33,366 nt of DNA from a virus, in the IMG/VR virus record IMGVR_UViG_3300042349_000045, positions 1-33,366 of that record. One strand, given 5' to 3'. This document shows positions 4,857 to 26,262 of this stretch, one piece after another. The stretch's first letter is position 1. Each line of letters opens with the position of its first letter. Under the pieces are notes generated by a model. The model ran no database searches and was not told the DNA's origin. It was given only the letters and a program-made list of their open reading frames with translations. The translations under genes were made by a program, and so were the position numbers.

Positions 4857-5183
4857 TTAGTTAATGTGTGATAAGATTAGTTGTTCCCTTTGGGTGATCC
4901 CAAACGTTGCTCTCATCCACGAGAGCCAATTGCTACTTCCTTTAGCCTGATTACATTTCCAACAGCTGGGTACAAGATTTGATGTAAGGTCTTCACCTCC
5001 ATAACAACGAGGGCGGACATGATCCAGAGTAAGTTGATGTAAGTCATAGGTTTCTCCACAGTATACACACTGACAATTAAAGTGTTCCTTAATGGCGCGT
5101 CTCCAAAGACGCTTTGCTTCGGGACTTGTCATTGTTATTAGGTTTTGTAGATAGTGATCAGGCGTAGGAAATAGCGGTGTCAT
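4857..5183 (-). CDS. HNH endonuclease
   Basis: A 108-aa single-domain HNH nuclease. Zinc-binding CxxC pairs are CVYC (about 39-42) and CWKC (about 74-77). Between them is LTLDHVRPRCYGGEDLTSNLVPSC, giving the D-H, N and second zinc-knuckle elements of the family. The start overlaps the preceding stop as ATGA. HNH proteins beside terminase genes are known in many tailed phages, and some are needed for packaging with the terminase. That is plausible here, since small terminase lies two genes upstream and large terminase downstream. A free-standing homing endonuclease is the main alternative; I see no intron or interrupted gene to support it. Confidence 0.88.
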   Translation of the reverse strand: MTPLFPTPDHYLQNLITMTSPEAKRLWRRAIKEHFNCQCVYCGETYDLHQLTLDHVRPRCYGGEDLTSNLVPSCWKCNQAKGSSNWLSWMRATFGITQREQLILSHIN

Positions 5184-19175: not shown

Positions 19176-20072
19176 TTAAGATTTATACCAGGAAGGTAGT
19201 TCAAAACTTGTAGAGTATTTACTGCCACCACCACTAGCAAGACCTGCGATACCAGCTTGAGCTATACCACCAACGGCATCAAAGATAGCACCCGGCATAG
19301 ACGATGCAATACTGCCTTTAATCGGCTTAGGACCGAAGTCAAACTTCTTAGGTTTACGTGGATCTTGGAAGATAGCACGTGGGGTAGTGAGAGGTTTAGG
19401 AGGTTGAGGTAGACGTTCAGGCGTAAGCATACGAGCTGCTTCTGCTGCAATATCTGCACCATACTTATCAGCTGCAATCTTCTTAAGAGCAGCTTGGGTT
19501 TCACCTTTAGCACTGATGAGAGATTCAGCGAGGATAGCCTGATTACGCCCAAGGGAAGCCATAAGAGCTTGTTCACTTTTAGCAGCACTTCTACCTTGCT
19601 GACCTTTAACAGCAGCAGCACCTTCAGCTTCTAGTGCCTTAATAACAAGGTCTTGATTTTGGAAGGCGATCTCGTTTGTGGCATCTTCAAGACGCCGATA
19701 TTCAGCTTCTTTAGCAGCCCCCTCAGCCATCTTATTGAAGCTTAGCTGTTGACCATAGAGTTTCTCAGATTTAGCATATTGCCTCATCTGTGAACGGTAC
19801 TCAGCATCTTGAATCTTTAGAGCATACTGCCAATCTTGGAGGTTTGTTTGATCCTTCCAAGCTCCCAGCATCTCTTCATTTTGGCGAGAGATGTTAACAC
19901 CACGCTTTGTATGACGGTAATCCGCCATAGTGCTGCGCTTGTTCATTCGCCAAGCTTTATTCTGGTATTTAAATTGAGCTTCAGCAGCAGAACGTGCAGC
20001 TGAATCCTGTTGAGATGCTCCTAAAATACCTAAGCCGCCTGTAACAGCAGCTGCAACTAATGGCCATACCAT
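19176..20072 (-). CDS. Internal virion protein, gp14-like
   Basis: 298 aa. The N-terminus is a short hydrophobic Gly/Ala segment (WPLVAAAVTGGLGILGASQQ), followed by a long Gln/Ala/Lys/Glu-rich helical body (residues 25-215) and a C-terminal Pro/Lys-rich linker ending in a hydrophobic Gly-rich stretch (AVGGIAQAGIAGLASGGG). T7 gp14 is shorter (196 aa) but has the same place between gp12 and gp15 and forms the outer-membrane part of the ejection channel. Assignment is by position, helical Ala/Gln composition and hydrophobic ends. Confidence 0.8.
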   Translation of the reverse strand: MVWPLVAAAVTGGLGILGASQQDSAARSAAEAQFKYQNKAWRMNKRSTMADYRHTKRGVNISRQNEEMLGAWKDQTNLQDWQYALKIQDAEYRSQMRQYAKSEKLYGQQLSFNKMAEGAAKEAEYRRLEDATNEIAFQNQDLVIKALEAEGAAAVKGQQGRSAAKSEQALMASLGRNQAILAESLISAKGETQAALKKIAADKYGADIAAEAARMLTPERLPQPPKPLTTPRAIFQDPRKPKKFDFGPKPIKGSIASSMPGAIFDAVGGIAQAGIAGLASGGGSKYSTSFELPSWYKS

Positions 20073-23719: not shown

Positions 23720-24736
23720 TCAGGAACGAGCCGACTGCAGTTCGATAGCAGCAGCAGGATTCAGGGTGCCGCAACCCATAGCCAGACGACCCACAATCAG
23801 GTCACCTTGATACATCACGGAGACATCACCAGAGGTGGTCTGCACGGAGGGAGCAATAGCTTCCACAACACCAGCAGCATCCTTCTGATAGATAAGACCA
23901 CAGTGGGTCGTGAAGTCACCAGAGTAGTTGTTGTTCTCGCCTTGGACAGCAGCCACGTTACCGGCCAGGAAGGGCAGGTTGTTGGAACGCTTGATGGAGA
24001 TACCAGCGATCTCATAGAGACCCTCACCAGAGGTCAGGTTACCCTGATTGTTACCGAAGTCACGGTTCAGGATATTGCTGTCAACCTGGCTCACCAGTGC
24101 ATAGTACTGACGCGGGGACAGCACAGCGGTACGACCAGTCTTAGGCAGGTTCTTCTCATCCATGATGGAAGCAGCTTCAAAGAAGGCATCCACCAGAGCT
24201 TGAGCGTTATACTCGTTAGTCACACCAAGCTGGATGATGCTACCGCCGGGCTCAGGACCAGGGGAAGCGGTGATGGGATGAGCTTCACGAGCAGCCTTAG
24301 CGATCTGACGGAAGATCTTCTTATCATAAGCTTCAGCAAGAGCATGACCAATCTTCTTGGCGATCTCACCACGAAGGCTATAATGAGCAAGAGTCTCATC
24401 CAGATCATACACGAATGCAGAGCTGATCAGGAGGTCATCACAAACGATGGTCTTCTCTGCCACCGGGGGATCCCCACTACCGAGAATAGGAGTGCCGGGA
24501 ACATGATACCCTGCCTCCATACGGCCAGTGAAGATGAATTGCATTGCCTTACCATTCTTCAGGGTACGGCTTTGCACAGTGCCTTTGGCGATAGTGGCGC
24601 TTTCATACGCCTTGAACATTTCACCAGAGAACAGTTTCAGATAAGTTGCGTACTTAGTATCATACGCATTTGCACCAGAGGTGCTGGATACCGCTTTATT
24701 AAGGGTACCCAATACGGTTTGAGTAGTGTTAGCCAC
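23720..24736 (-). CDS. Major capsid protein (T7 gp10-like)
   Basis: 338 aa, close to T7 gp10A (345). HK97-fold signs of the T7 type: N-terminal helix region (ANTTQTVLGTLNKAV), YLKLFSGEMFKAYESATIAKGTVQSRTLKNGKAMQF as the E-loop region, DDLLISSAFVYDLDETLAHY, and AAVLSPRQYYALVSQ. The start is GTG (MANTTQ if initiated with fMet); no in-frame ATG fits better. No Shine-Dalgarno precedes it, only a pyrimidine-rich stretch, unexpected for the most abundant phage protein. Upstream is a dense set of RNA structures including a tRNA-like element; the scaffold gene is separated from it by the photosynthesis cassette. Confidence 0.95.
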   Translation of the reverse strand: MANTTQTVLGTLNKAVSSTSGANAYDTKYATYLKLFSGEMFKAYESATIAKGTVQSRTLKNGKAMQFIFTGRMEAGYHVPGTPILGSGDPPVAEKTIVCDDLLISSAFVYDLDETLAHYSLRGEIAKKIGHALAEAYDKKIFRQIAKAAREAHPITASPGPEPGGSIIQLGVTNEYNAQALVDAFFEAASIMDEKNLPKTGRTAVLSPRQYYALVSQVDSNILNRDFGNNQGNLTSGEGLYEIAGISIKRSNNLPFLAGNVAAVQGENNNYSGDFTTHCGLIYQKDAAGVVEAIAPSVQTTSGDVSVMYQGDLIVGRLAMGCGTLNPAAAIELQSARS

Positions 24737-24766
24737 AATAGAAAAGAGAGAGTTGTGTACGTCTCC

Positions 24767-24869
24767 CTAAGCGCTTAGAGAATCACATGAGTAGACATGT
24801 GTTCAAAGAAATCAAAATTGTTGTCTGTCTCTCCAGACCGTCATGACTAAAGGGTATCGGTCGTAACCG
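24767..24869 (-). promoter_or_regulatory. Leader of capsid mRNA with three inverted repeats
   Basis: Between the tRNA-like element and the capsid GTG lie: CTAAGC/GCTTAG, a perfect 12-base palindrome (24767-24778); CACATG-N6-CATGTG (24784-24801); and CGGT-N4-ACCG (24858-24869), which on the minus strand has a UACG tetraloop of the stable UNCG class. None is followed by a T-run, so they are better read as processing or stabilising structures in the capsid leader than as terminators. A phage promoter may be embedded, but I could not identify one. Confidence 0.5.
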
Positions 24870-24880
24870 GCCAATAGTCA

Positions 24881-24956
24881 ACACCCCAGCGAGGAATCGA
24901 ACCATCGCTTTTCTAGGCTATCTGCCTAGCGTTTTACCAATAAGTACTATGGGGTA
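24881..24956 (-). tRNA. tRNA-like element, possibly degenerate (central triplet GAT)
   Basis: On the minus strand about 75 bases fold like a tRNA. Acceptor TACCCCA (from 24956) pairs with TGGGGTG (to 24882). The D-loop contains TTGGTAAA. A perfect five-pair anticodon stem CTAGG/CCTAG holds a seven-base loop CAGATAG with central GAT (isoleucine position). A four-base variable region follows, then a T-arm with GGTTCGATTCC. Deviations: the D-stem pairs poorly, the T-stem carries a bulged T, and position 33 is A instead of the near-invariant U. It may be a decayed tRNA, a tRNA-like RNase P/processing signal, or an attachment-site remnant. No CCA is encoded. Confidence 0.4.
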
Positions 24957-24998
24957 CTCCACATCTCTGTGGATTTCAGCCCGAGTTAGCGGGAACTA

Positions 24999-25175
24999 TC
25001 ACGGCCAAGCAACTCCACCAGCTTGAACTTTAACACCTTTAGGACTTAGTTCAGTTAGTGTTTGGTTAGCTTGACCATAAGCTGTACGGAATGCCTCTGC
25101 TCCAGCGGTAGGGGTCACATATTGTACAGCAGTTACCGAAGAATTTTCTGGTTCAAAAGGATTAGCACGTGCCAT
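24999..25175 (-). CDS. Small hypothetical protein after psbA, 58 aa
   Basis: ATG at 25175, four bases past the psbA stop; TGA at 24999. It starts MARANPFEPENSSVTAVQYV and continues AGAEAFRTAYGQANQTLTELSPKGVKVQAGGVAWP. It has no membrane segment and mixed helical and Gly/Val character. Its tight spacing after psbA suggests co-transcription with it. Coding potential looks good (codon-regular, no rare features), but I recognise no family. It could be a small capsid-associated protein, given that major capsid follows. Confidence 0.6.
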   Translation of the reverse strand: MARANPFEPENSSVTAVQYVTPTAGAEAFRTAYGQANQTLTELSPKGVKVQAGGVAWP

Positions 25176-25179
25176 TTAA

Positions 25180-26262
25180 TTATCCAATAGAAGGAGCCAC
25201 CAGTGCCACAGGAGTGGTTTCAGCACTGGCAAGGTCAAGTGGGAAGTTATGGGCATTACGTTCGTGCATCACTTCAAAACCAAGACCAGCTCGGTTGAGG
25301 ATGTCTGCCCATGTGTTGATCACTTTCCCGTCAGACGAGAGAAGAGATTGGTTAAAGTTGAAGCCATTAAGATTGAAAGCCATGGTCGAAACGCCCAAAG
25401 CAGCAAACCAAATACCAACAACAGGCCAAGCAGCAAGGAAGAAGTGAAGACTACGGCTATTATTGAAAGACGCATATTGGAAGATTAAACGTCCGAAGTA
25501 ACCATGAGCGGCTACGATGTTGTAGGTCTCCTCTTCCTGCCCAAACTTGTAACCATAGTTTTGACTTTCTTGTTCAGTAGTCTCACGCACAAGCGAGGAC
25601 GTAACGAGCGAACCGTGCATAGCACTGAATAGCGACCCACCGAACACCCCAGCGACACCCAACATGTGGAAGGGGTGCATCAGGATGTTGTGCTCAGCCT
25701 GGAACACCAGCATATAGTTGAAGGTGCCGGAGATACCCAGGGGCATGGCATCCGAGAAGGAGCCCTGACCGAAGGGATACACCAGGAACACAGCAGATGC
25801 CGCTGCAACGGGAGCTGAGTATGCAACACAAATCCAGGGCCTCATCCCTAGTCGATAGCTAAGTTCCCACTCTCGTCCCATGTAAGCATAGATGCCAATG
25901 AGGAAGTGGAACACTGTAAGTTGGAATGGACCCCCGTTGTAGAGCCATTCATCAAGTGAATTAGCTTCCCAAATTGGGTAGAAGTGTAGTCCGATGGCAT
26001 TGCTGCTCGGAACGACGGCTCCCGATATGATGTTGTTTCCATAGAGAAGACTCCCTGCAACAGGTTCGCGGATGCCATCAATGTCAACTGGTGGAGCCGC
26101 AATGAATGCAATGATGAAGCAGATGGTGGCTGCAAGGAGACACGGAATCATCAGTGTTCCAAACCAGCCGATATAAAGACGGTTGTTAGTGCTGGTTACC
26201 CAGTCACAAAAAGAGTCCCAAGGATTAATTCGGGACTCAGGGGCTGCGAGTGTAGCAGTCAT
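25180..26262 (-). CDS. psbA: Photosystem II reaction-centre protein D1
   Basis: Full-length 360-aa D1, the fast-turnover subunit binding P680, pheophytin, QB and the Mn cluster in thylakoid membranes. Nearly every segment matches cyanobacterial D1: [113 protein letters not shown]. Mature D1 should end at A345, leaving a 15-residue tail that host CtpA removes. E131 (cyanobacterial position 130) is Glu, the high-light D1:2-type residue. No intron. It starts nine bases after the RlpA-like gene, without a clear ribosome site. It replaces photodamaged host D1 during infection. Confidence 0.99.

Follow-up and report, generated by a model that had tools for sequence, protein, structure and literature searches.

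In animal mitochondria, the tRNAs that lie between genes define the ends of mRNAs, and in phage T7 long transcripts are cut at RNase III duplexes into mRNAs that end in stem-loops. Of the enzymes that form tRNA ends, RNase P cuts at the 5' side and RNase Z cuts tRNAs without an encoded CCA after the discriminator base, and both mainly read the acceptor stem and the T-arm. Both enzymes also cut degenerate tRNA-like RNAs that are not charged, namely plant mitochondrial t-elements and human mascRNA (PMC11658184). The working principle considered here is already known from mitochondria and from mammalian nuclear RNA. To our knowledge, there is no earlier phage example of tRNA-mimic punctuation, and the literature that we searched, in which coverage was partial so that an earlier report may exist, contains no description of a phage system that combines minimal forms with multiple copies in one genome and with a non-tRNA hairpin as an interchangeable alternative.

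Here we describe a tRNA-like element in front of the major capsid protein (MCP) gene of a T7-like cyanophage; no description of it at this place was found in the literature searched, in line with the initial annotation of the sequence. Like plant mitochondrial t-elements, the element is apparently tRNA-derived, lies at an apparent mRNA end, has divergent D and anticodon regions and does not encode CCA (PMC11658184). Unlike them, it occurs in cyanobacterial phages, has much smaller minimal forms, can be exchanged for a hairpin and is followed flush by a 5' stem-loop; its cleavage is something that we infer. With the MALAT1 mascRNA and the MEN-beta RNA (RF01684) it has in common its small size, its likeness to tRNA and a strong half made up of acceptor and T-arm. 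However, mammalian mascRNA ends a long non-coding RNA, whereas the phage element precedes mRNAs and has no significant match to that family (the element of phage Syn5 scores 23.4 bits, below the gathering score of 42.5, and the window element gives no match to RF01684). Punctuation in animal mitochondria is carried by working tRNAs, whereas most of the phage elements cannot decode. The T7 RNase III sites are similar in that they belong to related phages, in which long transcripts are cut and acquire stem-loop ends, but the signal in cyanophages would be a tRNA mimic. Canonical phage tRNA genes, such as the tRNA-Gly gene of NATL1A-7, occupy the same slot and are homologous in sequence in part of the family, but the window element scores too low as a tRNA and has no U33.

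Results

The window, i.e. the whole 33,366-base virus record that was analysed, belongs to a T7-like cyanophage. Its late genes lie on the minus strand and comprise a connector, a scaffold, a lytic transglycolase-like gene, psbA, a 58-aa ORF and the major capsid gene (Table 1). The initial annotation had placed the element between psbA and the capsid gene. It does lie 5' of the capsid gene, but the 58-aa ORF separates it from psbA.

Table 1. Features of the capsid gene region in the window
Feature	Position	Strand	Basis or remark
Major capsid protein (MCP; Gp10A-like, PF21703)	23720..24736	-	E 1.3e-80
Third leader element, GUCU-GGAGAGAC-AGAC	24823..24838	-	Read from sequence; present in listed relatives
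Capsid-leader 5' stem-loop	24844..24880	-	Outer helix UGACU/AGUCA, inner hairpin CGGU-UACG-ACCG; covaries
Predicted RNase Z cut, after the discriminator base	24881..24882	-	Predicted from the 0-3 nt spacing and the RNase Z rule
tRNA-like element	24882..24956	- (coding strand)	Sequence, Rfam tRNA match, fold, covariation
Conserved paired element GUUCCCGCUAACUCGGGCUGAAAUCCACAGAGAUGUGG, distinct from the tRNA-like element and immediately 5' of it	24958..24996	-	No Rfam match
58-aa ORF, between psbA and the tRNA-like element	24999..25175	-	Near-identical ORF in L007
psbA (photosystem II D1, PF00124)	25180..26262	-	E 2.2e-88

The element reads, on the minus strand from 24956 to 24882, UACCCCAUAGUACUUAUUGGUAAAACGCUAGGCAGAUAGCCUAGAAAAGCGAUGGUUCGAUUCCUCGCUGGGGUG. 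The tRNA shape ascribed to it was borne out, as the cloverleaf is its minimum-energy fold (-27 kcal/mol, z -3.66) and was equalled by 0 of 200 shuffled sequences. The acceptor, ACCCCA/UGGGGU, has 6 bp and an optional U.G pair outside, which reads better than the seven pairs originally given because, together with a bulged T-stem of 6 bp, it makes up the usual 12-bp top half. The anticodon-like arm CUAGG/CCUAG closes the loop CAGAUAG with an A at position 33, the T-arm GCGA[U]GG UUCGAUU CCUCGC has a bulged U in its stem, and the D-arm is a remnant whose stem contains two good pairs. The three departures from tRNA rules listed at the outset, namely A33, a weak D-stem and a bulged T-stem, are all real.

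The window element is not a canonical tRNA, as it falls short in score, in position 33 and in stem lengths. The Rfam tRNA model (RF00005) matched it at 24955-24883 (minus strand) with 18.8 bits, under the gathering cut-off of 29; the E-value was 0.36 for all families over 601 bases and 0.0047 for the tRNA model alone over the whole record. At the gathering threshold, Rfam gave zero matches in the window, and ARAGORN called no tRNA at the element. ARAGORN at a 50% threshold was discarded, since it produced noise on nearly all sequences. The window element has neither U33 nor a usable anticodon loop, position 33 is not a U in L007, L169, L121, L141 and L153 either, and in place of the 7-bp acceptor and 5-bp T-stem of a tRNA it has 6 bp and 6 bp with a bulge. 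Across the family, T-stem pairing amounts to 82% in the bulged register versus 70% in the canonical tRNA register, and the latter was rejected as the poorer fit to window-type elements.

Capsid-gene relatives were collected from IMG/VR and phage records and by pattern scans for a T-arm before the conserved leader. Cyanomyovirus contigs returned by the scan (L088, L092, L124 and others) were excluded, as their tRNA clusters are ordinary and this capsid gene is missing from the contigs; in L088, L092, L107 and L124 a tRNA is followed directly by the consensus promoter TTGACA-N16-18-TATAAT. A BLASTN search of the element against phage records found no homolog and only short matches of the tRNA-loop type. 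When 11 relatives were aligned, the covariation score of the cloverleaf and leader was 0.402 versus 0.180 when shuffled (0 of 500), and at most 0.110 when slid; in 13 pairs both partners have changed. The acceptor helix is paired in 100% of these relatives with 5 of its 6 pairs changed on both sides, the anticodon stem covaries as well, and RNAalifold agrees with the result for both cloverleaf and leader. The element is a member of a conserved family and not a lone relic. The initial annotation had named a low tRNA covariance score and a lack of conserved pairing in relatives as outcomes that would speak against the element. The score is indeed low, but the pairing is strongly conserved, which reverses that half of the argument. 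Furthermore, alignment A2 links the window element via L121, L153 and L131 to the genuine tRNA-Trp of L067/L111, and the family grades continuously into a genuine tRNA-Trp at the same place. Joined to tRNA-Trp in this way, the element resembles t-elements in being degenerate yet homologous to a tRNA.

The 101 distinct elements that we found range from genuine tRNAs through forms with broken arms to mini forms. A genuine tRNA-Gly (about 70 bits) occupies the capsid slot in NATL1A-7, where it is annotated and scores 70.5 bits, and in L205 and L263, and a genuine tRNA-Trp (60.5 bits) does so in L067 and L168. Where the D-arm or the anticodon arm is broken, the elements score roughly 32-51 bits as tRNA. 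The mini forms, of 36-50 nt, consist of the acceptor stem, one small hairpin or loop and the T-arm, have no anticodon arm, and stack 11 pairs instead of 12. They are carried by P-SSP7, P-SSP2, P-GSP1, Syn5, S-CBP3 and S-TIP37, and the reduced form of P-SSP7, Syn5, S-CBP3 and S-TIP37 measures 41-49 nt. Across the family, only the acceptor stem and the T-arm, i.e. the top half, are consistently kept; acceptor sequences differ between elements yet still pair, while the conservation of the T-loop is partly by construction, its consensus TTCRA or TGCRA having been part of the search. In an acceptor test based on anatomy alone, a top half of at least 11 bp was present in 96% of 141 T-arms, but also in 44% of shuffles, and we therefore put the weight on covariation. 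A MAFFT alignment of the mini forms misregistered the acceptor and was left out of the counting. In L091 and L114, the strand that carries the capsid gene has a second tRNA-like element, of 39 nt and of the GATGGTGTAGGAGGGGTTCGATTCCCCTCC type, at another place in the contig.

Structure extends beyond 24881, the boundary given in the initial annotation, because the leader of the capsid gene opens with a covarying stem-loop immediately after it. In the window, the leader helix is predicted to begin one base past the element, and its stem-loop sequence occurs there only once. Of the 95 elements counted, 93 have 0-3 nt between the end of the acceptor and the TTG of the leader. As in t-elements, the position is that of an mRNA boundary, here deduced from the genes, on the coding strand and flush with the MCP leader, and CCA is not encoded, the discriminator being followed by TTG in the listed elements. 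The paired element upstream, GUUCCCGCUAACUCGGGCUGAAAUCCACAGNNAUGUGG, shows a compensatory change, CCCG/CGGG to CCCA/UGGG, recurs in L007, L067, L077, L089, L100, L104, L105, L111, L122, L039 and L076, and accompanies both slot types. Also upstream of the slot, L089, L100, L103, L104 and L168 have a conserved hairpin with GUCCU(G/U)AUGAGGC and compensating stem changes; it has no Rfam match and resembles half a hammerhead core, the other half being absent.

The content of the capsid slot is exchangeable and can be a tRNA-like element, a genuine tRNA or a different conserved hairpin, called here the H hairpin. Among 101 capsid leaders with enough upstream sequence, which include near-duplicates and hence are not independent (e.g. 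L004 and L008 are both S-CBP1) and 8 of which were classified by inspection once the automatic search had been run, 24 follow a tRNA or tRNA-like element, 77 follow an H hairpin and 0 follow both. The finder for tRNA-like elements called nothing in 1540 shuffled slots, and in 1.06 Mb it made 3 calls that lay outside the slot. In the 77 H hairpins the loop is an almost invariant CACCTCAGAGTCGGA with a few variants, and the stem varies in sequence but pairs; examples are L004:2048-2064, L194 and L195. The H hairpin has no Rfam match. A tRNA-model search of 78 relative records gave 4 matches, 3 of which are at the capsid slot (L007, L067 and L077), the fourth being a weak match of 11.3 bits elsewhere in S-CBP1. 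Slot content differs even between near-identical capsids: S-CBP1 (96% MCP identity) has the hairpin, S-CBP3 (93%) a mini form and the window the full form. Glutamine-II riboswitches lie upstream of the capsid gene in L183, L186, L188, L191, L192, L193, L194 and L199 and also in L004, L105, L220, L226 and L263; none was found in the window region searched.

A strict search of six whole isolate genomes gave nine further calls before genes, all on the coding strand (three in P-SSP7, three in 9515-10a, two in S-TIP37 and one in P-GSP1), as well as one call inside the tail-fibre gene of S-TIP37 that is probably false. A relaxed search added a likely element at 2728 in Syn5. A perfect hairpin with 6 bp or more starts no more than 8 nt downstream of 7 of the 9 calls versus 7.0% of random coding-strand positions, drawn from all genome positions and not from intergenic ones alone (binomial about 2e-7, calculated by hand with the calls treated as independent). 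Several cyanopodoviruses share a module before early genes, in which a tRNA-like top half is followed by a short stem-loop and an ORF start. Phage 9515-10a has an H hairpin in the capsid slot, yet tRNA-like elements before early genes. Published tRNA lists give none for 9515-10a, none for S-SRP01 and one for NATL1A-7.

The RNA polymerase of Syn5 has only two promoters in its genome, one of which serves over 37 kb (PMC3950665). Exact matches to this promoter are at 4929 and 44797, and the Syn5 MCP gene at 20017 is near neither. No sigma-70-like promoter (-35/-10 hexamers) was found at 24700-25180 of the window. The Syn5 motif has one match with 2 mismatches in the window, at 24699-24713, which is at chance level. 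With two promoters only in Syn5 and no sigma-70 match in the window leader, the capsid mRNA would derive from a long transcript. Infection by P-SSP7 raises host RNase E (PMC9692554), which makes a need for protected mRNA ends plausible.

Discussion

We consider it probable that the element is a phage t-element, which host RNase Z and/or RNase P excise from a long transcript. A long late transcript would span psbA, the capsid gene and beyond. In it, the non-decoding tRNA-derived structure would present the acceptor stem and T-arm that the tRNA-end enzymes recognise, and a cut by RNase Z after the discriminator base and/or by RNase P at the 5' side would remove the element and split the psbA message from the capsid message. 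The capsid mRNA would then start with UUGACU or GUUGACU, 0-3 nt from a stem-loop that is expected to slow 5'-end-dependent decay. The initial annotation had already suggested that RNase P and RNase Z might separate the two mRNAs, and this is the best-supported reading: covariation, recurrence at the slot and retention of the top half argue for it, as do the tight spacing to the 5' stem-loop and the extra copies ahead of other genes. As most close relatives have an H hairpin without tRNA likeness, the tRNA enzymes cannot be the sole route, and some slot forms, being genuine tRNAs, may do no more than decode. The 11 stacked pairs of the mini forms, one fewer than usual, also count against this reading.

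The presence of a genuine tRNA-Trp and tRNA-Gly in the same slot, and the alignment of the window element with tRNA-Trp through intermediates, would also be expected if working tRNAs had been acquired repeatedly for late-gene translation and the window copy were a decaying pseudogene. This is unlikely. Decay yields no compensatory changes in acceptor and anticodon-like stems, reduced forms with no anticodon arm occur widely, the module is also found before early genes, and slots without a tRNA-like element hold another conserved hairpin instead of nothing. The several conserved structures of the leader, the almost invariant loop of the H hairpin and the riboswitch-type elements nearby in relatives could point to an uncut cis-acting regulator or RNA-binding site formed by element and leader, acting in translation control, in ribosome or protein binding or in 3'-end protection of the upstream mRNA. 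However, a binding site would not obviously tolerate a tRNA-Trp, a tRNA-Gly, mini forms and an unrelated hairpin at one place, and the 0-3 nt spacing better suits a site at which ends are formed, so that we regard such a regulator as distinctly improbable.

In the unrelated cyanomyovirus contigs a tRNA directly precedes a promoter, and by analogy the conserved leader might be a promoter for the phage polymerase with the tRNA-like element merely adjacent. We find this very doubtful, as the leader covaries as RNA, its sequence occurs once in the window and has no sigma-70 match, and neither of the two Syn5 promoters is at the capsid leader. A role at the DNA level, either as the remnant of a host tRNA attachment site, also raised in the initial annotation, or as a hot spot of recombination or insertion, is hardly credible, even though the scaffold-capsid interval is variable in genes and the exchange of slot content shows recombination nearby. 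The changes preserve RNA pairing, and an attachment site is unsupported, since the 20-base 3' half of the element has 0 exact matches in 84,980 bacterial and archaeal genomes and the integrase gene is 12-17 kb away in Syn5, P-SSP7, S-CBP3 and S-TIP37.

Excision by tRNA-end enzymes may be part of a wider scheme, to which we give an even chance. T7-like cyanophages would cut a few very long transcripts at a genome-wide punctuation code of minimal tRNA mimics (about 36-50 nt, top half only) by means of host tRNA-end enzymes, with each downstream mRNA opening with a stem-loop and with the capsid slot also served by an unrelated hairpin type. If true, this would explain how ocean phages that are abundant but nearly devoid of phage promoters obtain separate, stable mRNAs for their most-needed protein. 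It would be the first phage case of tRNA-mimic punctuation known to us, would indicate how small a part of a tRNA is enough in cells, and would account for the odd tRNAs and tRNA pseudogenes of cyanopodovirus genomes. The processing reading also makes exact predictions of where RNA ends should lie in Syn5, P-SSP7 and S-TIP37.

Other RNA families were met in the same set of contigs. L096:890-1122 and L157:4868-5125 are group I introns (97 and 94 bits) that apparently interrupt a cyanopodovirus capsid gene. AbiF RNAs accompany abortive-infection genes, and an abiF RNA (RF03085, 47.8 bits, cut-off 37) at L201:3901-3937 (minus strand), 6 nt 5' of the tRNA-like element of this phage contig, could for that reason be a phage decoy.
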